Made by a program: the position numbers and the translations under genes. The notes beneath the pieces were generated by a model. The model searched no databases and had not been told where the DNA came from. It saw only the letters and a list, made by a program, of their open reading frames with translations. From Ceratorhiza oryzae-sativae (Eukaryota > Basidiomycota > Agaricomycetes > Cantharellales > Ceratobasidiaceae), in contig JARWMV010000039.1 of the NCBI GenBank assembly GCA_030998015.1, forward strand, positions 62,001 through 126,000: a DNA stretch of 64,000 nucleotides, in the 5' to 3' direction. Below are positions 3,701-18,228 of the stretch, one piece after another (position 1 is the stretch's first letter; each line of letters starts with the position of its first letter).

Positions 3701-4109
3701 CTATTAGAGGAGATTTAAGCACCTGTAGCTGAGGAAGTACACACATTAGGCAGCCCACCATCTATCCTATAAGCTATTGCTTAAGTCTAGAATTAAGATT
3801 AGTATCAGTTAGTCCAAGTGACTAGGGCTGAACTACATTTAAGATATCTAAGGGAACCTGACCATAGTAGTCTTGCTCTTTATACCTATAAATTAGTCAG
3901 TTTACACTGTGAAAGATTAAGACTACCTTGAGTGTTACTTGATTGCATTGCAACTACTTTGAGCCTTCTTACTCTAGTCTAAGAAGTATTGAGTACAATT
4001 AGTGTATACTAACATATCTACATTTGCTTAAGCTCTAGATATTCAAGTGTACCCTGACCCATAACAACAAGTAAAAGAATTCCACCGACTCCATCCCAAT
4101 GCACTTGGA

Positions 4110-4126
4110 CCTTGATGGGGGGGAAG
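4110..4126 (+). other. Polypurine tract of the left gypsy element
   Basis: A purine run with seven consecutive G (GATGGGGGGGAAG) ends immediately before the LTR starting at 4127. It is the plus-strand primer site that marks this LTR as the 3' one of a plus-strand element. The 380 bp before it (3701-4082) show no gene. Confidence 0.7.
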
Positions 4127-4643
4127 TGTCATGGCCTAGACCATGATGCAGATTTTATTATGATTTTCCTATATTTTATACATCTCTCTTTCTCATATTT
4201 TTGGACAAGTCCTGTTTAATTGGATATATGCATAGAATTACTTACATGATCATGTGACCTTGTTGTTGTTTACATTCTGTTTGTACCTTCTGGAATATTC
4301 TGTTACATGGCACCATTCTTACATCTTATAATAGTTGTCTTGCACCATATGTGTATTTGATATAGCTCATTGTATGAATATATAAGGGAGAGTCTGAGAG
4401 CCTTAAGCCTCAGAACTCGACCTCCTGTCGTATCCCCTCTACTACCTGTGTGACTTACAGTCCACAGTCCCTGCCCAGTCTCTTAAGGACAAGCACACCT
4501 ACTTCTACCTCCTTGCATCTTATTGCACCCTCACTGCACATCCTACCTTAGATGTTGTCAGTACAGCCTCCAGCATCACTGCCCATAGGCTTGTCATTGC
4601 CACTTAGGTGTTTGACATTACTCTTCAGGTTGTAGCTCTGACA
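4127..4643 (+). mobile_element. 3' LTR of the left Ty3/gypsy element
   Basis: This 517-bp LTR starts TGTCATGGCC and ends GCTCTGACA. A purine tract lies directly upstream, and a TATA box (ATATATAAGGG) lies near 4377-4388. The solo LTR at 573-1081 is a reversed second copy. CpG is almost absent. The element's 5' LTR lies left of the window. Its insertion cut the TPR gene fragment that begins right after 4643. Confidence 0.85.
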
Positions 4644-5220
4644 ATGTCATTTGATTGATGGCAGATATTGGATTGCTTGATCAAGATGTTCAATACTTTT
4701 CAAGCACTTGAAAAAACACAGGTAGGCACTTCCAAGAGCACAAAGGTAACCCAGCATCCAAAAATTGTTGCTTGAACCCTTGTCCACAGCTTAATGGTGA
4801 TATTCAATCAACATTTTAATATCCACTTGAGTACCTCCCTGATCAAAGAGATCCTGATAAGCACCCCAAGGTCACTCAGTAAGCTTGACCTCCCTTGCAA
4901 ACCTTTTGGCCATAAAGCAAGGACATGCTCATAGTAAGAGACCAAAGTTGTGAGGTTTTTGGGGTTACCAAAAGATGTGAACAGGTCATTATATGAGCTT
5001 CCAAGCACACTCATCCATTCAGTTCTATCTGGGTTGCCTTCTTGAGTTAATGAAAGCACAAGCTTTTGTAGATCAATAGCCTTTTGAATAGATTATTTAC
5101 CCCCTAGACACTCAAAAAGGCTGAGGTATGCATTGCTCAAGTTTTGAAGTTGAGCCAGCTTGCTCGGGTTGCTTTCTACAGTTGAGGACACAGCAGATTC
5201 AAAGGAGCTTCTCTGTGAGC
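4644..5220 (-). pseudogene. TPR-array protein fragment (decayed)
   Basis: On the minus strand the sequence reads as repeated tetratricopeptide units. Examples are NPSKLAQLQNLSNAYLSLF, a stop, then SIQKAIDLQKLVLSL, NPDRTEWMSVLGSSYNDLF and NLTTLVSYYEHVLAL, followed after a frame change by HLDQAIQYLPSI. The pattern of a leucine- and asparagine-rich helix followed by NPDR and a helix with YEHAL is that of the long TPR arrays that precede CHAT domains in many Agaricomycetes. The fragment has an in-frame stop near 5092 and a frameshift, and it ends at the LTR. No CHAT domain is visible. Confidence 0.6.
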
Positions 5221-5602
5221 CCACTGTATGCAGAAATTTCCTATTTTGCTATGAAAAACTGTGTTTCCAACTATATACCTGGAATTTACACATCTAGGAG
5301 AATTTGAAGACAAGTTCCAATATGGCTGTATGAGCAGCAGGTACAATTTTATCTCTCACTAGGTCCAACCAAAATCAGAAAAATCCTGGTCATGTTAGCA
5401 TCCCCTTATCAGGATGTTTTAATCTGATATTCCTAATGAATTATATTGTATTTTGAAATGATGGCTGCAATTTGTGCACCTGGAATCTCCAGAACAAACG
5501 GGTTTCAAGTGCTTATCCTTGATGGGAATCTTGTGGTTCTTTGATTATTTCATCAATGATGGGATGAATTTTGTTCACCTGCCTGGCTATGGGGGTGATT
5601 AC
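5221..5602. other. No gene seen
   Basis: This AT-rich, CpG-poor sequence holds no supported coding region. The last part is the left flank of the large retrotransposon. It should be contiguous with 15792 onward if the insertion is removed. Confidence 0.5.
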
Positions 5603-5607
5603 CCCTG
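5603..5607. repeat. Target-site duplication CCCTG, left copy
   Basis: CCCTG stands directly before the LTR start at 5608 and again at 15787-15791, directly after the other LTR. This shows that 5608-15786 went in as one unit. Confidence 0.93.
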
Positions 5608-6186
5608 TGTCGTGACCCTCTGGAGGCTCCCTTGTGGAGCACTTAAGTAGTGGCTGCATTGACGGTTTGGTGCTATGCAGTATGTATTGAGCGTTCTAGT
5701 TACAGTGTTTTGCTATGGTCTATGGTGGTTGACAAGATAAAGCAAGCTGAGGCATCCAGTCTTGCTTTATCCTCCTTATATATACCTGTGGCTGTGGTGG
5801 CTGCGGACGTATTATCTAAGCACACTCCGCAGTAGGTGTAGGTTATGTACAGTACTATGGGTTAGGTAATTGTTTGTCTTAAATTTGTGCGGCTCCAAAT
5901 CTTATAGAGCCGCGCGAGGTCCGAGGGTCATGTGACCTTTTTGGACTTAAGCACCCGGCGCTTAATCGCTGAATAAGCGCCGAGATCACGTGACAACTCG
6001 CTCCTCGCTCCAGGTAACATGGGAGAGAAACGCTGGAGCGAGTTCAGGGTAACCACCGGCGCTTAATTGTTAGGTAAGCACCGAGATCACGTGATCCTGT
6101 TTATGGTTTGTTCCACTTCGGGAAAAATGCCATAAATCTGTACAATATTTGGTTGTTAGGTTATGTCTGCTAGGCGGGTCATAACA
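5608..6186 (-). repeat. 3' LTR of the Rep-carrying element
   Basis: On the plus strand it starts TGTCGTGACC and ends GGTCATAACA, so in element orientation it runs TGTTATGACC...GGTCACGACA. It contains a TATATATA promoter, a GATAAAGCAAG...CTTGCTTTATC hairpin just downstream of it, and CACGTG boxes. It has lost several CpGs that the other LTR keeps. Confidence 0.93.
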
Positions 6187-6203
6187 TTATCCCCCCCTTT
6201 GGA
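6187..6203 (-). other. Polypurine tract of the Rep-carrying element
   Basis: On the minus strand, CCAAAGGGGGGGATAA lies directly before the 3' LTR, as expected for the plus-strand DNA primer. Its position shows that the cargo genes lie upstream of it, inside the element. Confidence 0.75.
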
Positions 6204-6261
6204 CATGTCTTGGGGGATCTCGAGGCATGTTTCTTTTCTGGGTTCTAAAAGTTTCTAAAAG

Positions 6262-6389
6262 GTATCTCATATATCGAGGAGGTTAAGGGTGCTGGACTCA
6301 AACCAACGACCTTCCGTTCAATGTGTAATTGATTAGCTAGGAGATGATGAGTCAGGCTAGACCCCTTAACCTCTACGCTACATGAGATT
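6262..6389 (-). other. tRNA-like hairpin with Pol III box motifs
   Basis: On the minus strand this segment holds TAGCGTAGAGG, a fit to the A box, and 78 bases later GGTTTGAGTCC, a near fit to the B box. Flanking arms pair: GAGGTTAAGGG with CCCTTAACCTC, and TCTCAT with ATGAGA. A T-arm-like stem GTTGG/CCAGC is present. No complete cloverleaf with a sensible anticodon can be drawn, so it is either a degraded tRNA or SINE head, or a chance structure. It lies between the Rep stop codon and the purine tract. Confidence 0.35.
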
Positions 6390-6483
6390 ACTTTCTCCTT
6401 GCTTATTTCCTTGTTTAAGCTTACTTCTCGACACATGGTCTGTGAATAAAACAAGCTTATACAAAGATAATTTATTTTTATTT

Positions 6484-7770
6484 TTAAGGAAAAATAAAAA
6501 ATGGCTTCCCTCCTGAGTATACCCAGTCTACGTTCTTGGATACCCATAAGTCCCCTTCTTCCCCCTCTACATCCGTCCAACACTTCATTATGGCCGACCA
6601 GCTATTCCCCAGGATCACTGTCGGCCATACCTTCATTGACTTCACATGAGCATATCTGCCTGTGAAGTCTGCTTCATACTGGCTCAGGGCTTTGAGCGAG
6701 TACTTCCTGTTTGACTGGACCATGTCATCCAGGATCCAGATGTCGGCGTCCTCCGACAGATTCCCCACGTTCCAGACATTGCACATCCGGCTATGGGAGC
6801 CCTTGGATCGTGCATACGCCGTCTTCCCAGTTCCTGTTTCGCCTTCAATCACCAGGATGCGATGGCGCACGCCCCTCCCTCTCTTCTCAGCCTCTTCCGC
6901 AAACCATCGGTCCGCCCTGTCGATGTGCGCCCGGTCTTCTGGGACTTCCAACTCCACCGGGATTGCAGGCATGCATCCCCGGTCCTCCTTATACGTGTAC
7001 TCAGCATATGCTCGTACCGAGTTCCACGTCGTCACCATCTGGAGGGGGCGCAGGCGCTTGAATGCCTGGTAGTATTCTTTTTTTGTCGCTGAGGCAACAA
7101 TCTCCGCCCCGTCCTCCAGGTCCGCCTCCGCCCTTGACCTTTTCCTGCCCTTTCCCTTCACCAGGATTTCCTCTAACCTTTCCAAGGTCAGGTCCCCCGC
7201 CATCAGCTCCTCTACCTCCTCGCCGTTAGCTCCGACATCCTTCCAGAGGTAGTTGAAAGCCTCCCTTGCAGGGTTGCCTCCTGGTCCGTCCTTGAGGTCC
7301 TTCGGCAGGATGTTGGGGTGTTGCCCCTCGAAGTCCCAGAACCGGGTGTTCTGGGTGTTCCAGCCGCCCTTCCGCTCCTGACTGATGGAGAGGGCGTGGA
7401 CATGGAGGGGCCGGGCCGGGTCGTAGTTCGGTTCCTCGGGGTTGTGGCGTTCCACCACCACCAAAGTCGCCCAATGATTTGGCCGTTGGCGGCAGAACGC
7501 CTCGTATCGGGCGACGAGCCCACTTGAGGGCTGATCGCGTAGCTTCGACCAGGTCAGCAGCACCGCCCTGGTCTGGACGCGGAACCGAGGGGCCGGCGCG
7601 GTTTCGGTCAGCTCTTCGGACCCTCGATCCGTCGGCGTAGGCCGCATAGAAGCGGGTGAGGGGGCTCGGCTTGATACCGAGGGCACTGGCGATGGCGACG
7701 CCGACCTCCGCCCTTCGCTTGATCCGCTTGGCTGGGGTGTTGCCGCGTTCGATCCATTTCCGCTTAGCAT
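6484..7770 (-). CDS. rep: CRESS-DNA-type replication initiator (HUH endonuclease and SF3 helicase)
   Basis: The 428-aa protein has a Ser/Pro-rich head (about 1-60) and then an HUH endonuclease domain. Motif I is VLLTW (70-74), motif II is LHVHAL with His123 and His125, and motif III is YLWK with Tyr174 and Lys177, the expected nicking tyrosine. A basic linker (KGKGRKRSR) follows at about 205-213. The superfamily-3 helicase domain has Walker A GETGTGKT (310-317), Walker B WILDDM (345-350) and motif C VILGN (385-389). All catalytic residues expected for a Rep that nicks, joins and unwinds circular single-stranded DNA are present. It lies inside the retrotransposon in sense with pol, 298 bp from the 3' LTR. 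I chose the first ATG of the open frame; an overlapping frame starting at 7867 could supply another head through splicing. The family call is firm; activity is unknown. Confidence 0.9.
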   Translation of the reverse strand: MLSGNGSNAATPQPSGSSEGRRSASPSPVPSVSSRAPSPASMRPTPTDRGSEELTETAPAPRFRVQTRAVLLTWSKLRDQPSSGLVARYEAFCRQRPNHWATLVVVERHNPEEPNYDPARPLHVHALSISQERKGGWNTQNTRFWDFEGQHPNILPKDLKDGPGGNPAREAFNYLWKDVGANGEEVEELMAGDLTLERLEEILVKGKGRKRSRAEADLEDGAEIVASATKKEYYQAFKRLRPLQMVTTWNSVRAYAEYTYKEDRGCMPAIPVELEVPEDRAHIDRADRWFAEEAEKRGRGVRHRILVIEGETGTGKTAYARSKGSHSRMCNVWNVGNLSEDADIWILDDMVQSNRKYSLKALSQYEADFTGRYAHVKSMKVWPTVILGNSWSAIMKCWTDVEGEEGDLWVSKNVDWVYSGGKPFFIFP

Positions 7771-8310
7771 CGTTTACAGTTTTAGAGGTATTTGGGGACT
7801 GGGAAGAGAGCATGAGAGTGCGGGTTATCTCGGGCTTGTGCTTGTCTATATAAGCTGCAAGGTCCATTTTGATTGTCACATGACTCCGTCTTGCATTTGT
7901 TGTGATCACATGACCTTATTTTGGTGATGACGCATCTCCGAGGGGTGCCCTCCCATCCGTTCCTCTGCGTCAGCCTTGATCCTTGCTACGCTCAGGGCCT
8001 CCACTCCCCCACTTCAGTCGGTGCCCCCTCTCCGACCCCTCTGGTAGTTAGGGGATAGCGTATATTCACGTGACTAGGCTAGGTCATGTGATTCCTGTGC
8101 TTTGTTGTTTGTTTTCTGGCAGGTGGTCACGTGACTAGGCTAGGTCATGTGATTCCCGTGCTTTGTTGTTTGTTTTCTGGCAGATGGTCACATGTCTGTT
8201 GGTGTCACCTGACCAGACCTTGTTTTGATGTTTGTGCAAGTTATTTTGTTGCACCGTGATTTTTTAATGTTTGTGGTTTTGTTGTTTTCCTTCCTCATCC
8301 CATCTTTACT
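7771..8310. promoter_or_regulatory. Divergent intergenic region of the cargo
   Basis: The region lies between the Rep gene (leftward) and the spliced ORF (rightward). It carries several copies of CACGTG, CATGTG or CACATG boxes inside TCACGTGA-like palindromes (near 7876, 7905, 8067, 8087, 8129, 8149 and 8190), the same boxes that are frequent in the LTRs. A two-way promoter is likely. A CRESS-type origin would sit in this place in a virus genome, but I found no NANTATTAC-type nonanucleotide. Confidence 0.5.
8066..8187. repeat. Two 61-bp tandem repeats
   Basis: Two exact-length 61-bp units, 8066-8126 and 8127-8187, differ at two positions. A third start (TCACATG) follows at 8188 and then diverges. 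Each unit begins with the palindrome TCACGTGA and holds a second TCATGTGA. They lie in the region between the divergent cargo genes. Confidence 0.9.
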
Positions 8311-8845
8311 ATGCGTGTTATTTCCCTTAACTACAATCCCCTTGACTGCACCTGCTGGTCTCTCCCTGAGGGGGAGTACTGCGCCTACTGTGATGCCGTG
8401 TGCGACGCCTCCCTTGAAGACTTCTATCAAGGTGTTGGGGACTGGTTCTTCTGTGGGGTGCCAGGTATGTGTGTTTGTTCTTCATCGTTCTCACGTAGCT
8501 AACTTGTTCTGTAGAAGAGCGCATCCTCCTTGATGGTCGGGCCCATGAGGCCACCCTTGAGCGTGTCTGGGCGCTTCGTTGATCAGGACTGCCTTTGAGG
8601 AGCGGCCACCAGGCTGCCTTGCTGAGTTTTTTGAGGAGGGCTCGCCCCTTGTTTGATGAGGCCTCACCCTTTGCGGCTTCTGGTTCTGGATGTTTCCAGA
8701 ACTATATGGCCGATCTCCCAGGGGGGGAGGCCCCCTGGCTGTTGCCTGAGAACCGGGCCGGTGGTTCTGCGGCCCGTACTACTAGGAAGGATAAGAAGGC
8801 AAAAAAACCCTATACCCGGCCCCTCAAGGGCAAGAAAAAATAGAA
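8311..8845 (+). pseudogene. Spliced ORF with Cys-rich head and basic tail, one in-frame stop
   Basis: Exon 1 (8311-8464) encodes a cysteine-rich start (DCTCWSL, YCAYCDAVCD). A 50-bp intron (GTATGT, CTAAC branch, TGTAG) fits exactly. Exon 2 (8515-8845) continues in frame and ends with the lysine-rich tail KDKKAKKPYTRPLKGKKK. The joined frame of about 160 codons has one stop, TGA at 8580-8582, which could come from CGA. It runs opposite to the retrotransposon and back-to-back with Rep. I do not recognise the protein. A small basic protein next to Rep recalls viral coat or nuclear proteins, but nothing in the sequence proves that. The 79 bp to the next stop at 8925 are AT-rich and probably hold both 3' ends. 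Confidence 0.45.
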
Positions 8846-8924
8846 ACATTTTGAAATGTATTATTATATGATTATGAAAATTATTCTTAAGACATTCCAA
8901 AAAAACGTGTGATAGGCCCGATAA

Positions 8925-9782
8925 TCACAGGGGCTCCGGGGCCAGCAGGGGCACTTCCTCCAAGGCGCCCGCCAGCTCATCCTCCCATTTGGCCCAATCC
9001 GTTTGGACTCCCTCTTGGGCCGGGTCCGGGGTTGGTTCCTTTATCGTTACTCTCGGCTCCTCCTCCTTCACCACCAGGGACTCCAGGCTTGCCGTGAGGC
9101 TCGACATATCTGTGTCGTAACCGTGCAGGTTTGGGCGTACCTTCACCCAGTTACGGAAGTCGGCCAAGTTTGCTTCCTTCAACCTGATGGCAGTAAACAT
9201 TTCATCAGTGGTAGTGGCCTCAAGCAGTCCCACATACGGTGCCGCCGGTGCCAGCTTCCACTGCTCCAACAGTGCCTTTGCCTGGCGCTCCACCTCCCAG
9301 TCCCCTCTGTCTGCCATTTGGCCTGTGGCCCTCCTCTGTTGCCTTGCTGCCTTGGTCACCACGTCGACTGTGGGTCCCACAATATTGTCGACGACATACA
9401 TTGGTGTTCTTAACAAGGCGTTTCTCGTTGTTGGCTTCCAGCTTCCATGCCATGTCAGGACCCCTAACCTGGGATCCAGGTACTTGTCATCGTCAATCCA
9501 GTTCCTTTCATCCCTTAACTTCTTTGGGATGTACACTAGGTTAGCCCCTGGCAACAGTTGTTCGGCATACCTCTGGGCGTCTTCCACACTGGAGCAGTAC
9601 ATCCCTGGTTTAGGATGATTTTCCCTGCCAGGGTAGGGTGCTGGCCGCCTGGTGGTGGGTGGCTGCCGAAGTGGGGCCACCTGATTTTCGGCAAGTGGGG
9701 TGTAATGGTTGGGATGTGCAATTGGGTGAGTGACGAAAGGCATGTTTTGGGGTTTTTTTTTTGCAGGTGTGTTGTGGTGCAA
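8925..9782 (-). CDS. Unknown 285-aa protein of the retrotransposon cargo
   Basis: The frame is fully open and begins 53 bp after the pol stop, in sense with pol but in another frame. The head is rich in Pro, His and Lys. A middle part (about 60-210) holds SVEDAQRYAEQLLPG, IPKKLRDERNWID and LTWHGSWKPTTRNALLRTP. A long helical stretch with KAARQQRRATGQ and ERQAKALLEQWK follows, and then an acidic, Pro/Glu-rich tail. There is no signal peptide or membrane segment, and I recognise no domain. It could be a structural or nucleic-acid-binding partner of Rep, an env-position accessory protein, or a captured host gene. Its open frame beside a frameshifted pol argues that it is a real gene. Confidence 0.65.
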   Translation of the reverse strand: MHHNTPAKKKPQNMPFVTHPIAHPNHYTPLAENQVAPLRQPPTTRRPAPYPGRENHPKPGMYCSSVEDAQRYAEQLLPGANLVYIPKKLRDERNWIDDDKYLDPRLGVLTWHGSWKPTTRNALLRTPMYVVDNIVGPTVDVVTKAARQQRRATGQMADRGDWEVERQAKALLEQWKLAPAAPYVGLLEATTTDEMFTAIRLKEANLADFRNWVKVRPNLHGYDTDMSSLTASLESLVVKEEEPRVTIKEPTPDPAQEGVQTDWAKWEDELAGALEEVPLLAPEPL

Positions 9783-9835
9783 GAGAGGTAGTAGAGCGGG
9801 CTCTGGCTTTTCTTGGGTATCCTGGATGGCTCTTT

Positions 9836-10078
9836 TTAAAGCTTTCCAGATCCTCGTTTGGTTCTCTTTGGCCTGCCTTTCGAGTCACCTGAGTGCTGAC
9901 TTGTCTTGACTGGCATTGGTGCGTCTGGTAAGCGCCTTTGCAAGTCATTTAGAACCTCTTTCATGTCAGCAAACTTGCTGGCACGTTCCATTGTGTCTTC
10001 TATTGGGTCGTAGCCCTTCCATCTGATTTGGTAAAACAGCTTGCCATTCCGCCATTCATAATTTGCAATGTGGTCCAC
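9836..10078 (-). CDS. Pol C-terminus: chromodomain
   Basis: The sequence has the chromodomain core: VDHIANYEWRNGKLFYQIRW, then KGYDPIEDTME and LNDLQRRLPDAP. The aromatic cage positions (Tyr, Trp) are present. It is the extreme C-terminus of the pol polyprotein and defines the element as a chromovirus. Such domains steer integration towards marked histones. A frameshift separates it from the GPF module upstream. Confidence 0.88.
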   Translation of the reverse strand: MDHIANYEWRNGKLFYQIRWKGYDPIEDTMERASKFADMKEVLNDLQRRLPDAPMPVKTSQHSGDSKGRPKRTKRGSGKL

Positions 10079-10500
10079 CTTGTATTCCTCCTCTCCTTTT
10101 TCCGTTATGATTGGTGGTGGTTGGCCTGCCTTCTTCGGAAGTCTTTATCTTCTGTGAATGGCGAGAGGAGATTTACATGGAATACATTGTGTACACGTAT
10201 GTTTTAGGTAGGTCCAGGCGATATGCATGGGATGAGATCTTTTCTGTGATTTCAAAGGGCCCCCCTTTTCGGTTGTCCAGTTTCTTGGAGGGTCTCTTGG
10301 ACGAGAGGTTTGTTAGGAGCAGCCAAACCTTGTCTCCTACCTTGAATTCCCTCCCTTTCTTTTCCATTTGTTGGTGTAATTCCATTGAGGCTCTTGCCTC
10401 ATCCCATACCTTTTCCATTTGATTACGCATGTTGTCTGCAGCGGGTGCCTCAGATGGTTCTTCTCCCTCTCGGACAACCCATCTTGGGTTTTTTCCATAT
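10079..10500 (-). pseudogene. Pol integrase C-terminal GPF module
   Basis: The translation reads KGREFKVGDKVWLLL, then SSKRPSKKLDNRKGGPFEI and AYRLDLP, the standard C-terminal module of Ty3-type integrases, followed in another frame by HNVFHVNLLSPF. The frame changes at least twice between here and the chromodomain, so this part of pol is broken. Confidence 0.8.
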
Positions 10501-11541
10501 ACTGTTTCAAATGGGGTTTGTCCTGTTGTAGCATTTACGTGGTTGTTATGGCAGAATTCGGCAATGGGTAACCATTTTACCCAATCATCTTGTCTATAAT
10601 TGCAGAAGGTTCTTAAGAACCCTTCTACCCATTGATTTGTCCTTTCCGACAGACCATCTGTTTCTGGATGGAAAGCAGTGGAGAATCTGGGCTTTGTCCC
10701 AATTCCTTTGTATAGGGCTTTAGGAATTGGCTGTTAAAGGTTGGCCCTCGGTCTGAGACAGTGGTTTCTGGGGTCCCGTGATGTCTCCATACTTCCCTTA
10801 TGAATATTTCTGCCAGTTCTTCTGCATTGGTGCTCTCCAGACATGGTACAAAATGGGCCTGCCGGAGAAGCGATCTACAACTGTCAAATACTGTCGTACC
10901 CCTTTGAGACAGGTAATTTGACGATGAAATCATATGCGACATCTGCCCATGGTTTCCATGGGATTGGTAAGGACTTCAGGGGTGCCTTGTTTGTGTCCTT
11001 TGCTTCTTTGACACGTTTCACAAGATTCCACGTATCGGTTTACTTGGGCCTTCATTCCTGGCCAATAGTAATCCCTTGATAGTAATTCTAGTGTTCGGGC
11101 TTGTCCCTGATGACCTGCCACTGGGGCGTCATGGCACTCCTCAAGGAGACTCAACCTCAAGTCCTTGTCATCTGGGATGTAGAGCCTATCGTCATACCTT
11201 AATAGGCCCTCCTTCATTTCATACCGTCTAAATTCCTTCTGTACTGAGGGCGGTAGTTGTTCCTTATTTGCCACACTCAGCCTTAAGGATCTGATAGATT
11301 CGTCTTCTTCCTGAGCTTCTTTAAGCTCTTCCCAGAAATTCCCCTGTACTTCTGCCATGAAACCTATGAACCTTTCTTCTGGAATCATGATCTGTGGTTC
11401 CATAGGGGTATCCCCATGGTCGCTCCTTCTGGAAAGGGCATCTGGCTTCTGTGAGAGTTTCCCTGGTCTACACAATCTGAAAATTGAAGGGTGCCAGAGT
11501 GAGATACCATCTGGCATGCCTTCTATTCCACATCTGGGCAT
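10501..11541 (-). pseudogene. Pol integrase, zinc and catalytic domains (frameshifted)
   Basis: The zinc domain reads VAGHQGQARTLELL and CETCQRSKGHK. The DDE core follows after a one-base slip near 10990: SRYLTVVDS-like sequence is recognisable, then FIREVWRHHG and TVSDRGPTFNSQFL with the second Asp. Another change lies before NQWVEGFLR. Because the frame is lost several times, no full-length integrase can be made from this copy. Confidence 0.82.
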
Positions 11542-12112
11542 TTTGCCAGTACTGGAGGTTCCTATGGTCAGTGTATATCACAATAGGTTCCTCTGTCCCT
11601 TCTAAGTATAACCTCCAGTGCTCTAAGGACCTAACAATTGCAAGCAACTCCTTGTCGTAGGTGTCATAATTTTTCTCTGGTGGGGTGAAGCTCTTCGATA
11701 GGAAGGCAATTGGATGCAATCGGTTGTCATCACCCTTTTGGCTTAGTACCGCCCCCATGGCCACTCCTGAGGCGTCTGTTTCCAGTATGTATGGCCTGTT
11801 TGGGTTTGGGTGGATCAGGACCGGTTCTCTTGCTACTGCTTCTTTGATAGCTTCAAATGCTTCCTGTTGTTTTCTTTCCCACAGGAATTTGACATCTTTT
11901 TGGGTGAGATCTGTGAGGGGTTTGGCTAAGGTACTAAACTTCTCTATCCACCTTCTATAGAACCCCACGAAGCCTAGGAAGGCTTGGACTTCTTTTACTG
12001 TGTTAGGTTCTGGCCATTCTAGAACTGCCTTTACCTTTTCCTTTTCCATCGATATCCCTTCTGGGGATATGACAATTCCAATGAAGCTTACCTCCTTCAC
12101 AAGAACTGACAC
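11468..12112 (-). pseudogene. Pol RNase H and RT connection (frameshifted at both ends)
   Basis: The frame covers the RT thumb (VQAFLGFVGFYRRWIEKFS) and a complete RNase H with ETDASGVAMGAVLSQ, TYDKELLAIV and YTDHRNLQYW. One base is missing at its start, relative to RT, and the frame is lost again after FNFQIV, before the integrase linker (RPGKLSQKPDALSRR). Confidence 0.85.
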
Positions 12113-13255
12113 TTGTGTGGTTTGAGGAAGAGGTGGTTTTCCCTCATTCTTCTTAACACTTCCCTGACATGTTGTACGTGTTCTTCCCTGTTTCTGGAAA
12201 ACACTAGTACATCGTCCATGTAGATTACCACATAATCGTCTATTATATCACGGAACTTTTCCATCATGAACCTGGTAAAGGTTCTTGGTCCTTCTTTTAC
12301 TCCGAATGGCATGACCAAGCATTCAAACTGGCCTTCTCCTGTCCTGAAAGCTGTTTTCCATTCGTCTCCCTCTTTTACCCTGATGTTGTTGAACCCCCAT
12401 CGAACATCCATTTTTGAATAGATGGTTGCATCCTTCAGTCTCTCAATCAATTCTATTTGGATTGGAAGTGGAAACCTGTCTGGCTTGGTGATGTCATTCA
12501 TCTTACGGTAGTCGACTACCAACCTAAGCCCTCCATCTGCTTTGTTCACATAGAAACAGGGTGCAGCTACAACTGACTGGCTGGGCCTTATTTTCCCGTT
12601 TCTTAGTTCCTCCTCTAGGTACTCCCTGAGCGCCTTTGTTTCTGCTGGTGACATACTGTACCTCTTTGCAGGCTTTGGCAGCTCCGCTCCCTCGATCAGG
12701 TCCATTTTGAAGTCTAGGTTACCTCGGTGGGGTGGAAGTTCTCGGAAACCTTCTTCCCCAAATAGGTCTTCAAAATCCCTAAATTCTTCTGGGATTTGTA
12801 GGCTTTCACTTGCTGCCCTTGCCTTGATTTCGTCTGGGTATGAGATGGTAAGGTCTTTCCAATCTATGATAGGTTCTGCTTCTTCAAGCCATTCTTTCCC
12901 TAGGACTATGTCTGTGTCACCTAGGGTCATTACATAAAGGGAGCATTTTAGTGTCTTCCCTTCCACTTCGATGTTTAGTTCTGCCCTTTCTTCTATGGCA
13001 TCCTTGATTTCATTTCCATCAATGGCCACAATTGATTTCTTGTGTTTGAGGGGAGTGGTTGGAATCCCTTTTTCCCTTGAATAGGCCTTATCGATGAAGT
13101 TGGTTGAAGATCCTGAGTCAATCAGCGTTTAGCTGGTTCCATGATTCCCTCTACCGTAGTGTATATTATTGATTGATTACTAGACTTCTTGAGGTAACAT
13201 ACATCTGCGGTAGGGGTTATATTGGGGTCCTCCAACATGGAAGTGGTAGGACCAA
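12097..13255 (-). pseudogene. Pol protease and reverse transcriptase
   Basis: The protease reads LIDSGSSTNFID with the catalytic Asp-Ser-Gly, placed one frame away from the upstream part by one missing A near 13130. RT follows: an IRPSQSVVAAP box, VDYRKMND, SKMDVRWGFNNIRV and the active site VVIYMDDVLVFS, which is intact. The gag stop overlaps the start of the pol frame with a minus-one offset near 13258, so a programmed frameshift is possible there. Confidence 0.87.
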
Positions 13256-13725
13256 TTAGTTTTCCGACTCAGAGCTGCTTTCTTCCTCAACTTGTCTGCT
13301 GGCCTTCCCTTGTATCTTAGCTTTGTCGTAGGTCCACTGGCCTCGGCACTCCTTCAGGACATGCCCTGATTTACCGCATTTGATACAGAGTCCTTCTTTC
13401 CTTCGCCTGTCCTTTTCACTGTTTGGTATCCTTACCATGTTGTTGGTTTGGGTATTCCCCTGTTTGCCGCTGGTCCCTAAAGGCTTGTTTCCCCCTTGTT
13501 TGTATTTCGCTGGTGCCCAGGTTGAATTTGATGAGTTGCTGGTCCTTGTATTCATTTTCTGGTTTGCAAACTGCATGTCATCCATTTTGCAGGCAAAGTC
13601 AATTAATTGATCTAAGGTATATGATGGACCTTCAGCCTCATTTGCCAGTACTTCAATCCTTAAGATCTCTTGTCGTACTTCGGGTTTTAACCCTTCCCTG
13701 AATTGGTCCTTGAGGCTTCCTGGTT
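13256..13725 (-). pseudogene. Gag C-terminal part with CCHC zinc knuckle
   Basis: The frame reads GSLKDQFREGLKPEVRQEI, LIDFACKMDDMQF and later the zinc knuckle CIKCGKSGHVLKEC (C-x2-C-x4-H-x4-C) before an acidic serine-rich end. It is offset by one base from the main gag frame that ends at 13687, so gag is broken near 13725. Confidence 0.85.
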
Positions 13726-15090
13726 CCAGTCTACCTCTTGGATCAGGATCCGGAATTGGGTAGCATAATCCAATGCACTCTTGGTCTGTGTTAATTTCCT
13801 TAGTTTCCGGATGGTCTTTTCCTTTATGACTGGGTCATTAAAAGCATCCAGGAATCCCTTCCTGAAATCCTTCCAGGATGCAAGAATACCTGTGTGTTCG
13901 CCTGCTAGTAGTTTCCGGCGGTAAGGTTGTGCCCAGTTTGCTGCTTCCCCATCCTCCATGTTCATTAGCACAGCAGATATCTTTTTTCGGTCATCAAAGG
14001 CTGATTCGTCATAGTCAGCAAAGAAAAGTTCCATGCTGATTATGAAGTTCTCTGCTTCCTTCCCCTTTTTCCCATTAAATTTGCTGGGTCTCCCTAGTCT
14101 CGCCTCCTTAGGAGTGTGGTTTGCAGCAAGGGTAGGTTGGTTTGCTTGGGATGGAGGTTCTGTTCGGGGTCTTATTGTGGACTCAGCCTGGAAGGTTCTT
14201 CCCAGAAAAGGTGTTCGTACTGGGGAGGCTGAGGGGGATCGTGAGGGGCTTCCTATGACCACCCTAGTTCTTCCCCTGGTTTCTTCTGTCCTTTCCCTTG
14301 GCCTTCCTGCTTCAGTTGTTTTCCGGAGCTCATTTCCTAGATCGGTTACCCGTTGTTCTAGTGCGATTAGGATCTCCCCTGTGTTTTCGGTTTTCTTCTC
14401 TAAGCTTTCGAGCTTTCGCTCTTGCATTCCCAGTACCCGGTTTATTTCCATGGAGATGTCCTTTAATTCTTTTATCAGGTTCCCCATTTCTGCTTTTAGG
14501 TCGTCCTGGTTCTTTGCCACATAGAGGACATTTTTGTTGGATGTTTCCATAGACCTTACCATCCAGTCCACGTTTCCTTCTTGTCGGGTTAGTGATATTT
14601 GACACTGATTTATACCCGTGATTGCCTTTTCTAGTTCCCTATGATTATTGTCTCTAAGTTCCTTGAGCCCCGCCCTGATGGCTGTGGCAATGGTGTGAAT
14701 AGGGTTGGCAGTGGCTATGGTTCCGGGACCTGGCTGGGGTTGTGTCCTTGCCTCTTCCGCCAAGGCCGTGCCTTGTTCGTATATGGTTCGGGTCATATCT
14801 TCTACCTCATCCCTCTCTGGATTTGAGATATCTTCTGGGTCTGGATTTATCAGGTGAATTGGCGGTTGAGGGCTGCGGAGTGGTATTCCCCCTATTTCCC
14901 CTCCCAGGATGGGGGCCCGAGTGGGGTTGGGTTGAGCCACTGGTCGTGGGTTTTGTGGCAACCCCCCTGGCATTCCTTGGAGGGTCTCATCTGGGTTACC
15001 TTCAGCCTCTGGGGAAGCAATGGGTTTGGGTGATTGTGGCCTACTATTTGCCACTCTGCTTTGAGATCGAGTTTGTGGTCTCTGTGACAT
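13687..15090 (-). CDS. Gag, N-terminal and capsid part
   Basis: The 467-codon frame begins with a Pro-rich head. A long coiled coil follows at about 150-240 (MQERKLESLEKKTEN, LEQRVTDLGNELRK). The retrotransposon gag domain starts near 325 (RPSKFNGKKGKEAENFI, FADYDESAFDDRKKI, WKDFRKGFLDAF). It ends early by a frame slip after QEVDW, and the remainder is in the next frame. The start is the first ATG, 120 bp after the 5' LTR. Confidence 0.82.
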   Translation of the reverse strand: MSQRPQTRSQSRVANSRPQSPKPIASPEAEGNPDETLQGMPGGLPQNPRPVAQPNPTRAPILGGEIGGIPLRSPQPPIHLINPDPEDISNPERDEVEDMTRTIYEQGTALAEEARTQPQPGPGTIATANPIHTIATAIRAGLKELRDNNHRELEKAITGINQCQISLTRQEGNVDWMVRSMETSNKNVLYVAKNQDDLKAEMGNLIKELKDISMEINRVLGMQERKLESLEKKTENTGEILIALEQRVTDLGNELRKTTEAGRPRERTEETRGRTRVVIGSPSRSPSASPVRTPFLGRTFQAESTIRPRTEPPSQANQPTLAANHTPKEARLGRPSKFNGKKGKEAENFIISMELFFADYDESAFDDRKKISAVLMNMEDGEAANWAQPYRRKLLAGEHTGILASWKDFRKGFLDAFNDPVIKEKTIRKLRKLTQTKSALDYATQFRILIQEVDWNQEASRTNSGKG

Positions 15091-15194
15091 AGTTTCTTTG
15101 TTCTCTTATGTATCACAGGAGTTAGCTGGTTTTCTCGTGTACTCAGCCCTTAGTATCTGTGCAGTATACTTAGGTTCGCCACTAGTTAAGTTAA

Positions 15195-15209
15195 GAGCTT
15201 GCTTTATAA
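15195..15209 (-). promoter_or_regulatory. Self-complementary primer-binding site
   Basis: Directly after the 5' LTR, in element direction, stands ATAAAGCAAGCT. It is exactly complementary to AGCTTGCTTTAT, which lies about 39 bp downstream of the first T of the LTR's TATATATA box, where the RNA 5' end is expected. No tRNA-type TGG start stands at the LTR border. This fits self-priming as known for Tf1/sushi-type elements. Confidence 0.7.
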
Positions 15210-15786
15210 TGTCGTGACCCTCTGGAGGCTCCCTTGTGGAGCACTTAAGTAGTGGCTGAGTTGACGGTTTGGTGCTATGCTGTATGTATTGAGTGTTCTA
15301 GTTACAGTGTTTGCTATGGTCTATGGTGGTTGACGAGATAAAGCAAGCTGAGGCATCCAGTCTTGCTTTATCCTCCTTATATATACCTGTGGCTGCGGTG
15401 GCTGCGGACGTATTATCTAAGCACACTCCGCATTAGGTGTAGGTTATGTACAGTACTATGGGTTAGGTAATTGTTTGTCTTAAGTTTGTGCGGCTCCGAA
15501 TCTTATAGAGCCGCGCGAGGTCCGAGGGTCATGTGACCTTTTGGACTTAAGCACCCGGCGCTTAATCGCTGAATAAGCGCCGAGGTCACGTGACAACTCG
15601 CTCCTCGCTCCAGGTAACATGGGAGAGAAACGCTGGAGCGAGTTCAGGGTAACCACCGGCGCTTAATCGTTAGGTAAGCGCCGAGATCACGTGATCCTGT
15701 TTATGGTTTGTTCTGCTTCGGGAAAAATGCCATAAATCTGTACAATATTTGGTTGTTAGGTTATGTCTGCTAGGCGGGTCATAACA
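15210..15786 (-). repeat. 5' LTR of the Rep-carrying element
   Basis: This 577-bp LTR is nearly identical to 5608-6186. It holds the promoter (TATATATAAGG on the minus strand near 15375-15385), the hairpin with arms GATAAAGCAAG and CTTGCTTTATC, and several CACGTG boxes. Confidence 0.93.
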
Positions 15787-15791
15787 CCCTG
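15787..15791. repeat. Target-site duplication CCCTG, right copy
   Basis: It matches 5603-5607. Confidence 0.93.
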
Positions 15792-15977
15792 GTGTTTCTT
15801 CCTGTGGTTCAGTGGTTGGTGGTCTTGAGGGTTCTTGTGTAGGGGGGTGGTTTGTTCTGGGTGGTCCCTGGGTTGCACCAAGGGTGTCCCATGTGCCAAT
15901 ATACTCCTTGTTACCCTTCTTGGTATCCCTGACTCCTCTTCAGGTTGAGAGGTTGGTCTTGATGGTGGTTTGGACAT
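15792..15977 (-). pseudogene. Gag N-terminal fragment of an older related element
   Basis: On the minus strand a frame starts MSKPPSRPTSQPEEESG and runs through VTRSILAHGTPLVQP to HRKKHQG, where the large element is inserted. Its Ser/Pro/Gln-rich head resembles the gag head of the inserted element, and it sits 69 bp after a related 5' LTR (from 16046). The older element was the landing site of the younger one. Confidence 0.55.
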
Positions 15978-16031
15978 GTTAATGGATTGTTCCTTTGGTG
16001 AAAGGATTGTTATTGCCATGGACCAGTGGGA

Positions 16032-16045
16032 AGCTTGCTCTACAA
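16032..16045 (-). promoter_or_regulatory. Primer-binding site of the older element
   Basis: The minus strand reads TTGTAGAGCAAGCT next to the LTR. GTAGAGCAAGCT in it is complementary to AGCTTGCTCTAC in the same LTR's presumed RNA start. Compared with the young element, both sides changed together. Confidence 0.6.
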
Positions 16046-16982
16046 TGTCACAACCTCTCAAAGTGGCCATCTGACTTTGCTTTACAAGTGGCTAATGCCC
16101 ATAATGGGTCTGGACTATATCCTGACTACTACTGACACATGGCTTGTGTAAGCTTGATGCCTTGTGTGTGTCTACTGTTTTGTGGCTTGACACCATATGA
16201 ACATATGTGCTTGTGGCTGATGGACTCCTGTTGCTGAGTAAGCTGCTGTCCACAGCAGGTAAGTCAGGTGCTTAGTGCTGGGGCTTGCAACATGCCTTGA
16301 CTTGGGGCCCTTCTAGCTGTTACTTAAGTTAGAGATGTCACACAAGAATACCAGTGCATACCCACACTGAATTTGCTCAGCAAGTTCAAATCCATTGAGA
16401 AAACTGTATATATGTGCAGACACCTCTCAACAGCACAAACATGCGCATATATGCAGTTTTTTCAATGGATTCAAACTTGCCGAGCAAATCCAGTGTGGGT
16501 GTACACCAGTATTCTTGCATGACATCTCTAAATTAAGTTAATAACTCAGCTAGGGACTGATCTTCACACAGAGTGCTTTAGAGGGGAATTGACAAGGTAG
16601 AGCAAGCTGGGGTAGACTGCTTTTTATACTATTCTAACCAACATAGTGACTAAGCATACATGCAGGATGAGTAAGAAAGAATGGCAGTGATCAATCAGCC
16701 AGTTACTAATAATGGTATATCCATCATCAGCAAGACAGTAAGATGAGTAAGGGTGAATGGCAGTGATCAGTAGGCAAGTGACTAATAATGGAGTGTGGAT
16801 CAGTGAGCAAGTGGAGTGCTTACTTATGAGGGGAAAGTGGTCAAGCCACAAGAAAAAAGTTGCAAACAAACAAAAAAATGATGGTTAGCTGTGAGACCTT
16901 CAATTGTGGCTCATGACATGAGCATTACATTGAGTTACAAGGGGTTACAGAACCTGAGGAGTTATCTTGGTAAGAGATTAGA
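16046..16982 (-). mobile_element. 5' LTR of an older related element, with a foldback insert
   Basis: It starts TGTCACAACC on the plus strand. It is an inverted relative of 18229-19520: the two share the sequence around GTCAGGTGCTTAGTGCTGGGGC and the GGTAGAGCAAGCTGGGGTAGAC promoter hairpin with TATAAAAAG on the minus strand near 16620. CpG is nearly absent. The far end was not defined and may be cut by the next LTR at 16983. Confidence 0.6.
16332..16528. mobile_element. 197-bp foldback MITE, GAGATGTC family
   Basis: Both ends read GAGATGTCA in inverted orientation, flanked by TA on each side (16330-16331 and 16529-16530). The whole element folds on itself, with arms of about 85 bp around the loop near 16430. 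A same-length element lies at 21013-21209. Confidence 0.75.
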
Positions 16983-17550
16983 TGTTATGACCTGCACAGA
17001 CAGCCATAACATAACAAGAGAATTAGCCTATAATTTATAGCATTTTCTCCTAAGTCAAACAAGCTATAAACAAGGTCATATGACCTCAGTGCTTAGCCTG
17101 GTGCTTACAGTGGTTATCTAACTTGCTCCTGCAATTCTCTCCATTGTAACTTGGAGCAAGCAGCAAGTTATCATGTGACCTCAGTGCTTAAATCATGTGA
17201 CCCTTGGAGCTTGCATGGCTCTATAAGATTCAGAGCTGCAACAACACTAAGAACAACTTACGTAAGGGTTATAGACTATTGCATGAAGCATCAACACTGT
17301 TTATCCATGGTCAAGCCACTCACATGACCTGTAAACACTGTGGACTGTGGGGAGGTCTGACTCACACCTTGTGGAGTATATAAGAAACAGGAAGCAAGCT
17401 GGAGGACCTCAGCTTGCTTTATCTTGTCCACCACAGGGACCTCAACCATACACTGTAGAATAACACACACAGTAGATAGAAATAGACAACACAAACAACC
17501 TAGCCACTACTTAAGGAAGACCAATGGATAGTAAACAGGGGGTCTTGACA
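16983..17550 (+). mobile_element. LTR, related family, CpG-depleted
   Basis: It starts TGTTATGACC and ends GGTCTTGACA. It shares with 20126-20632 (inverted) the sequences ACTACTTAAGGA and GAGCAAG and the promoter hairpin (GGAAGCAAGC...GCTTGCTTTATC) downstream of TATATAAG near 17380. A decayed internal region follows. Confidence 0.65.
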
Positions 17551-18228
17551 AATTTCAAGGAACTCATCAAGCAGATTGACAAGTTGCACCAAGTCCACTT
17601 GCAGGATTACTTGATACTGAGCATGATGGTGCCACTGTGAGAGGCCCTGGGCCTATATGAAGACCCATCATACTACAAGGAAGAGGACAACAACCTCTAT
17701 GCCAATGTGCCAATGAGTCCATTGGCCCCTACCTTGTAGCTGGTGGAACTGGCTTCCCTGTCTAATGCACCAGTGACACTGGCCCCCACTATTGCACCCA
17801 CCACACCAGCCCAGCTGGTACCTCCTGTTGCAGGCCTGCCTCAGGGTCTGCATACATACTTGGGGGTACCCCAAGACCTCCATGCAAACCTGTGTGGGAG
17901 TGCCATGTATCATGGCTATACCTGATCTGAGGCTGCAGATAGGCCAGTACTGGAGGTTGTGCCAGTACCCTTGGGCCAACCAGGATCATTGGGTGAACCT
18001 GAGGCAGATCCCTTGGGCAGTCTGAAGTGGAGACTGGCTGACAAGTTGCACTCCAGTGACCAATATGCACCCTGGGGTGGTATGGGTTTGGCTTCAGCAG
18101 TGGGTGCAGTGGGCAGACACTGTTCTGTTCAAAGTCCAGCCAAAAGGCAGACATAGCAAGCCTTGAGGGAGGGTCCCTTGAACAAGGACCACAGCAGGTG
18201 GTCAATACCAATGACCCTGAAGGGGTGG
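17525..18228 (+). pseudogene. Decayed gag-like frame
   Basis: A frame starting MDSKQGVLTNFKELIKQID runs through QDYLILSMMVPL, a stop, EALGLYEDPSYYKEEDNN and a Pro/Ala/Leu-rich stretch, with further stops. The position after an LTR and the composition suggest a gag remnant of a retrotransposon. No zinc knuckle is visible. The stops could come from CpG loss. Confidence 0.4.

Follow-up and report, generated by a model that had tools for sequence, protein, structure and literature searches.

Can a replication initiator of the CRESS-DNA-virus type be a lasting resident of an LTR retrotransposon and, if so, what would it do there? The question is raised by a locus in a 64,000-nt window, the whole stretch of DNA analyzed here, from Ceratorhiza oryzae-sativae (contig JARWMV010000039.1 of GCA_030998015.1, positions 62,001–126,000). 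A sequence-only reading of the window had assigned the full HUH and SF3 motif sets to a 428-aa open reading frame, and had placed this frame behind the chromodomain end of pol and ahead of the 3' LTR in a complete Ty3/gypsy element bounded by one CCCTG duplication; the frame and all of its motifs are located as described, and the LTR pair, its ends and the duplication are confirmed below. The same reading knew of no earlier account of a Rep resident in a Ty3/gypsy element, and in the open-access literature that we searched (titles and the starts of abstracts, with subscription journals mostly outside) no description of a Rep gene in an LTR retrotransposon was found.

Structure of the host element

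The host element is a structurally complete Ty3/gypsy LTR retrotransposon on the minus strand, with an LTR pair, a target-site duplication and gag followed by reverse transcriptase (RT), RNase H and integrase (INT) in that order (Table 1). The two LTRs are 97.6% identical (14 differences in 577 aligned positions), both have TG..CA ends, and CCCTG stands directly outside each. In the window copy pol is broken into several frames, and the protease match (RVP_2, 14.1 bits) falls below the Pfam cut-off of 20.3. Traits that may be Tf1/sushi-like are the SH3_Tf2-1 domain (53.3 bits against a cut-off of 30), the chromodomain-like end of pol, which at 24.4 bits stays below its cut-off of 25.1, and the 12-nt self-complement next to the 5' LTR; a primer complementary to the element's own LTR is a feature of self-priming elements of the Tf1 type. 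The element has in common with Ty3/gypsy chromoviruses of the Tf1/sushi group the LTRs, gag, RT, RNase H, INT, SH3_Tf2-1, a chromodomain-like end and a self-priming-like site; in contrast to them, it adds a 3.6-kb module with Rep, ORF2 and an antisense, spliced ORF3.

Table 1 Features of the element and its module (positions in the window)
Feature	Position	Strand	Remarks
5' LTR	15210..15786	-	577 bp; direct-repeat pair with 3' LTR
Primer site, self-priming-like	15196..15207	-	12 nt, after 5' LTR; complementary to LTR position 438
gag	13256..15090	-	Ty3-type capsid above Pfam cut-off; CCHC knuckle below cut-off
pol	10173..13029	-	RT, RNase H, integrase H2C2 and SH3_Tf2-1, all above Pfam cut-offs
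Chromodomain-like end of pol	9836..10078	-	Below Pfam cut-off
ORF2	8925..9743	-	272 aa from MPFVTHP; listed ORF extends to 9782 from TTG
ORF3	8311..8843	+	Predicted spliced gene (sequence-based model), antisense to element; exon 2 broken in window copy
ORF3 exon 1	8311..8464	+	
ORF3 intron	8465..8514	+	GT..AG, 50 nt
ORF3 exon 2	8515..8843	+	
Intergenic region	7771..8310	.	0.54 kb between diverging Rep and ORF3
Rep	6484..7770	-	428 aa; HUH motifs I-III, GRS-like motif, SF3 A/B/C; between pol and 3' LTR
Conserved long hairpin	6263..6388	-	Between Rep and polypurine tract; T-arm/B-box-like stretch
Polypurine tract AAAGGGGGGGATAA	6187..6200	-	Adjoins 3' LTR; identical in 21/21 sequences (window and 20 fetched copies)
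3' LTR	5608..6186	-	579 bp; TGTTATG...CACGACA; three TCAYRTGA sites

Two observations concern the LTRs more widely. About 1.4–1.7 kb beyond the 5' LTR, stretches within 17193–17434 are 76–79% complementary to parts of the LTR of the element, and on this sequence likeness a related LTR in opposite orientation probably lies there. Many copies, e.g., L025, L026 and L027, have a tandemly repeated stretch of roughly 100 bp (lying within LTR positions 93–232) that is single in the window LTRs.

Rep carries the motif set of gemini-type initiators

The motifs of Rep follow the canonical order I, II, GRS-like, III, SF3 A, B and C, i.e., VLLTW at residue 70, HVH at 123, FWDFEGQHPNI (GRS-like) at 144, YLWK, with its single tyrosine, at 174, GETGTGKT at 310, WILDDM at 345 and VILGN at 385. 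Written out for comparison, the window set VLLTW, LHVHA, RFWDFEGQHPNI, YLWK, GETGTGKTAYARSKG, WILDDM and VILGN can be placed beside that of a published mastrevirus-like Rep, for which PMC11053556 gives FLTYPQ, THLHC, the GRS RQFDIHDYHPNIQAARS, RIYQYITK, GATRTGKTSWAR, VIDDI and ILCN; the likeness of the GRS-like motif to this published GRS was judged by eye. Motifs I, II, GRS-like, III, B and C are kept, with variants allowed, in all 20 Rep copies compared, and Walker A in 19 of them. The pattern WD..G.HPN[IV] of the GRS-like motif recurs in 20/20 copies and in 43/58 homologues, fragments included. A search of 5.8 billion proteins, which catches only relatives sharing short words, returned 50 relatives with a single sequence as query and 57 with a profile, and all the named ones belong to Ceratobasidium strains.

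The only known Rep family to surface in profile scans is Gemini_AL1_M, which matches six of ten Rep homologues over a stretch ending at Walker A, all below threshold (E 0.001–0.19; the best, in one homologue, reaches 19.5 bits at E 0.001 against a cut-off of 24). The window Rep has no match to this family and none above cut-off to any Pfam or NCBIfam profile, and PHROGs returned nothing of note for it. In a six-frame search of the complete genome (E <= 10) Gemini_AL1_M gave three weak matches (E 0.5–5.9), none of them at a Rep place, and Gemini_AL1 gave none in the same genome; both were also silent in control genomes. The best NCBIfam match, to an ORC1-type model in the homologue P0010 (E 0.0066, 15.2 of 311 bits), was judged to reflect the P-loop and set aside. 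A PDB sequence search with Rep was empty, and one with the Rep profile gave a single chance-level match.

Structure prediction with AlphaFold2 gave poor models, with a mean pLDDT of 33.6 for full-length Rep and of 50.5 for residues 60–190, the latter with a weak β-α-β-β...α order. In structure searches Foldseek found nothing at E <= 0.001 in the PDB or the viral fold library, and no Rep among the top 50 PDB entries; a mastrevirus Rep stands at rank 4 in the viral library (E 0.076). No convincing relatives were found with two short peptide patterns in each of viral_contigs and genome_contigs, nor of one Rep homologue in plasmid and phage collections, and a degenerate Walker A pattern found nothing in viral_contigs.

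By its motif set, then, and not by a passed profile test, Rep is to be classed as CRESS/gemini-type; the assignment rests on motifs, since no profile exceeds its cut-off, the fold models are poor, and the canonical nonanucleotide is absent from the element (see below). Reps of geminiviruses and genomoviruses have HUH motifs I-III, a GRS-like motif and SF3 A, B and C in the same order, but, unlike these, the window Rep scores below every profile cut-off and lies inside an LTR element. The family call of the sequence-only reading is upheld as far as the motif set goes; the lack of an HUH or SF3 profile match, which that reading itself had named as a refutation of the call, is formally the outcome for the window protein.

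A three-gene module around a conserved intergenic region

Rep is one gene of a module of three, together with ORF2 and the antisense ORF3, arranged around a conserved intergenic region; over 3.6 kb the order is ORF2, ORF3, intergenic region, Rep and hairpin, with the LTR following. ORF2 has a pooled pN/pS of 0.30 (19 copies), and its relatives, eight matches, are all from Ceratobasidium sp. AG-Ba. Neither ORF2 nor ORF3 contains a domain above cut-off in Pfam or NCBIfam. Among the 20 sequences scored, 15 keep the predicted ORF3 frame open for 150 codons or more, two have it shifted and three, the window among them, have it broken; a 21st sequence (L040), which has no junction, was left out of this scoring. 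As ORF3 is antisense to the element, its intron would survive the RNA stage, which would fit a gene read from the opposite strand.

The intergenic region contains two 61-bp repeats (8066–8187) and, some 80 bp ahead of the start codon of Rep, the TATA-like sequence TATATA. Its folding is unremarkable (z −1.9 to −1.5) and unconvincing as an origin hairpin. No NANTATTAC-type nonanucleotide occurs anywhere in the element, and the relaxed form TATTATTAT occurs once, in the gap between ORF2 and ORF3; an origin, if there is one, would thus not be of known form.

Downstream of Rep, the stretch 6255–6400 folds with an MFE of −51.1 kcal/mol (z −4.97; none of 200 shuffles as good). The T-arm/B-box-like sequence GGTTCGAGTCC of the hairpin is found in 12 of 21 sequences, and the others depart from it by one or two changes. 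At least 40 copies of the hairpin are present in the genome, and 30 of the 40 listed have a listed Rep 28–93 bp upstream. Rfam gave no family above gathering score for 6150–6550 and ARAGORN no tRNA in the window, so that 'tRNA-like' denotes a resemblance only.

Rep occupies a fixed slot in a high-copy family

With the window Rep as query, Rep was found at no fewer than 98 places in the genome, with 77–100% amino-acid identity; two homologue queries add 19, which gives 117 listed places and, with a copy on contig 235, at least 118. Upstream of the 117 listed places and on the same strand, both ORF2 and RT are listed at 70, ORF2 only at 20, RT only at 10 and neither at 17 (limits of 6 kb for ORF2 and 12 kb for RT), i.e., the family's ORF2 and/or RT accompany 100/117, the same slot as in the window. 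At three listed Rep places ORF2 is nearby only in another arrangement. Uniform placement would lead one to expect ORF2 within 3 kb upstream of Rep in 0.49 cases. Viewed from the other genes, a listed Rep follows within 6 kb at 91 of 136 listed ORF2 places, and of 129 listed RT places 100 are followed by Rep at up to 9 kb or by ORF2 at up to 6 kb. The genome listings miss broken frames, and these counts are lower bounds.

Full copies free of the cargo, together with a separate target duplication around it, had been named in the sequence-only reading as a sign of a single later insertion. Twenty-nine of the 129 listed RT places have no listed module gene downstream, and cargo-free copies may exist. 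The complete element on contig 235, taken as a test copy since no Rep was listed in it, does hold Rep, 98% identical over 1000 bp and with a broken frame. One-off capture is excluded by the at least 118 Rep places, with family genes upstream at 100 of the 117 listed, and a single later insertion of Rep is strongly disfavoured. The idea of a cargo gene thus stands as regards residence in the 'env position' of a gypsy element, but Rep is not a lone recent capture; it belongs to a module that is family-wide.

Twenty 10-kb loci were fetched, corresponding to ranks 2–21 among the at least 98 Rep matches and hence biased to close copies. Downstream of Rep the tail and LTR are present in 20/20, and upstream ORF2 is present in 19/20 and pol in 18/20. 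The exceptions are L035, where Rep is preceded by no more than a portion of ORF3, and L033, whose first element is cut off in ORF2 by another element.

An internally deleted derivative, in which the start of gag is joined to the end of pol, has no RT and keeps ORF2, ORF3 and Rep where it was read (L023 and L033). Its junction is found at four places (contigs 3, 143, 164 and 186) with 100% identity over 131 nt. L023, the only complete copy that was read, is not flanked by a matching target duplication, and for this reason we make no claim for the mobility of the derivative.

Rep is under purifying selection

The selection sample comprised the window copy and 19 others (ranks 2–20). Rep is under purifying selection: against the window copy dN/dS is 0.08 for L018 (dS 0.38) and 0.07 for L020 (dS 0.45), the two most diverged of the 19, and the values for all 190 pairs span 0.07–0.65 with a median of 0.25. 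Interior stops are absent from 11 of the 20 copies and present in nine, including L020. Compared with a more distant copy on contig 12, dN is 0.18 and dS is saturated; the ratio of observed to expected CpG is 0.03 in the contig-12 Rep and 0.84 in the window Rep, and as this depletion inflates the dS of the contig-12 copy, the case for selection rests on the L018 and L020 figures. CpG/TpG/CpA sites account for 587 of the 781 transitions that separate the window copy from the 19 others; such CpG-to-TpG decay is described for Rhizoctonia solani AG8 (PMC4014442).

A second gypsy family and the age of the module

The module is also found with a divergent RT. On contigs 12 and 20, RT places with 65% and 63% amino-acid identity to the window RT have Rep 4.49–4.51 kb downstream, compared with 4.33 kb in the window; at the other six of the eight divergent RT places neither Rep nor ORF2 is listed downstream. 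In the contig-12 module, of which one copy was read, the gene order and strands are as in the window, and identity to the window is 72% for Rep, 50% for ORF2, 61% for ORF3 exon 1 and 42% for a later ORF3 stretch. The intergenic core (7921–8110) is 76% identical over 191 bp, compared with 72% for the Rep coding DNA, and no other long stretch of DNA is as well conserved between the two copies. A tree of 18 Reps groups the six sequences of window type in a single clade (100/100); the Rep of contig 12 lies outside this clade and shares an unresolved fork with Reps of other Ceratobasidium strains.

An apparent GT..AG intron follows motif I in the contig-12 Rep (L044, sense strand, about 2260–2315) and seemingly also in some relatives, P0020 among them; window-type copies are without it. 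The comparison suggests that the window-type Rep may have lost this intron through an RNA stage.

Either the module was present before the two gypsy families separated, or it has passed from one to the other. At synonymous sites the divergence from the window is 0.086 (pS) for Rep and 0.091 for ORF2, and 0.012–0.016 for gag, RT, RNase H and INT, which makes the module genes 5–7 times more diverged in this respect than gag-pol (11–20 copies per gene); this several-fold excess favours exchange, or a history that is partly the module's own. Rep is family-wide and old, and is not a recent capture.

The pairs L018/L037 and L020/L039 have a gag-pol about 99% identical to that of the window, yet a Rep of 90–91% and a tail of 76% identity, and an LTR that is also much diverged. 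They are probable recombinants with another subfamily.

Possible roles of Rep

The reading that we prefer, with about even confidence, is that a gemini-type Rep is a long-term selected resident of a Tf1/sushi-like Ty3/gypsy lineage in Ceratobasidium-like fungi, and that it drives rolling-circle copying. Of the mechanisms that we can infer, the copying of element DNA by rolling circle seems the likeliest, and for an enzyme with HUH and SF3 motifs kept beside a conserved ambisense intergenic region, the initiation of DNA copying on nuclear circles is the role that needs the fewest assumptions. Rep would be expressed from its own promoter and then enter the nucleus, and linear cDNA of the element, closed to one- or two-LTR circles, would be its extrachromosomal substrate; Tyr174 would nick element DNA within either the intergenic region or the 3' hairpin, the SF3 helicase would drive rolling-circle copying, and one reverse-transcription event could thereby provide several DNA templates for integration or transcription. 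The full form of this proposal, in which the LTR retrotransposon is also a rolling-circle replicon whose own Rep amplifies nuclear circles from an origin in the ambisense intergenic region, is more tentative and, as it stands, somewhat unlikely.

The main rival, which we consider unlikely, is that Rep is a resident and selected regulator or anti-silencing factor and not a replicase, one that binds repeated sites in the intergenic region and the LTRs, or prevents CpG hypermutation and the methylation of DNA by the host. The sequence TCAYRTGA is enriched in these places, with six occurrences in the intergenic region and three per LTR, where 0.03–0.04 are expected in each (0/300 shuffles); it is also found once in Rep, and not at all in the remaining internal parts of roughly 7.2 kb (gag, pol, ORF2, ORF3 and the tail). 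However, the 53.8 kb of the window that lie outside the element hold another 15 occurrences (a count without shuffle control), and the sequence is a form of the E-box bound by host bHLH factors, so the sites need not be those of Rep. A role against silencing would suit the CpG depletion of the old contig-12 copy, and geminivirus Rep is stated in PMC6338049 to downregulate MET1/CMT3; on the other side, Rep has no LxCxE motif, and its nuclease and helicase motifs are all kept, which regulation alone would not need.

That the Rep module acts instead on competitors, i.e., CRESS-type mycoviruses, plasmids or rival elements, is improbable. An antiviral function has been proposed for accessory domains of retrotransposons (PMC6338049), and the module is kept in the deletion derivative that has no RT (L023, with the junction at four places), but the conserved intergenic region and the fixed slot beside the replication signals of the element suggest a role in cis. 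It is very improbable that the protein is no Rep at all but another P-loop protein whose N-terminal motifs arose by chance: the lack of a significant profile or fold match would agree with this, whereas six motifs and the GRS-like one stand in canonical order and are kept in copies and homologues, and the weak strand and helix order of the poor model and the sub-threshold Gemini_AL1_M matches in 6/10 homologues point the same way as the motifs. Least probable of all is a separate transposon, inserted once into a gypsy element and hitch-hiking there, since, for all that a geminivirus-like Rep sits in a TIR transposon of Tuber (PMC3198968), that the module alleles are more diverged than gag-pol and that 17/117 listed Rep places are without listed neighbours, inverted repeats of at least 25 bp are absent from around the module (within 4000–18000), Rep is under selection, the slot is the same in two gypsy families, and the contig 235 test copy, with its unlisted Rep, holds the gene as well.

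Relation to known systems and significance

Unlike CRESS replicons, the element has no nonanucleotide origin and no recognised capsid gene. Helitrons likewise combine an HUH protein and a helicase in a eukaryotic mobile element, namely a two-tyrosine Rep and a Pif1-type helicase; these traits are absent here, where no Pif1-type Pfam match was found and Rep has the single-tyrosine motif YLWK together with SF3 motifs. A high-copy fungal mobile element with a gemini-like Rep is known from Tuber melanosporum, and according to PMC3198968 it is a DNA transposon with 37-bp TIRs, transposase ORFs and an interrupted Rep, in contrast to the present LTR retrotransposon with open Rep copies under selection and no flanking TIRs of at least 25 bp. 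Gypsy elements with a captured cytosine methyltransferase (PMC6338049) likewise carry an enzyme as an accessory gene, but the enzyme differs, being here an initiator of replication of virus type.

The open and decayed copies constitute a basidiomycete record of gemini-type Reps, and the intergenic region is a concrete candidate for an origin region. A single selected, high-copy element combines the hallmarks of two replication systems, one based on reverse transcription and the other on rolling-circle initiation of the HUH/SF3 type. Should Rep act on the DNA of the element, the rule that LTR elements multiply only via RNA would be broken; if it does not, a virus-type replication protein would have been newly recruited for regulation or defence.
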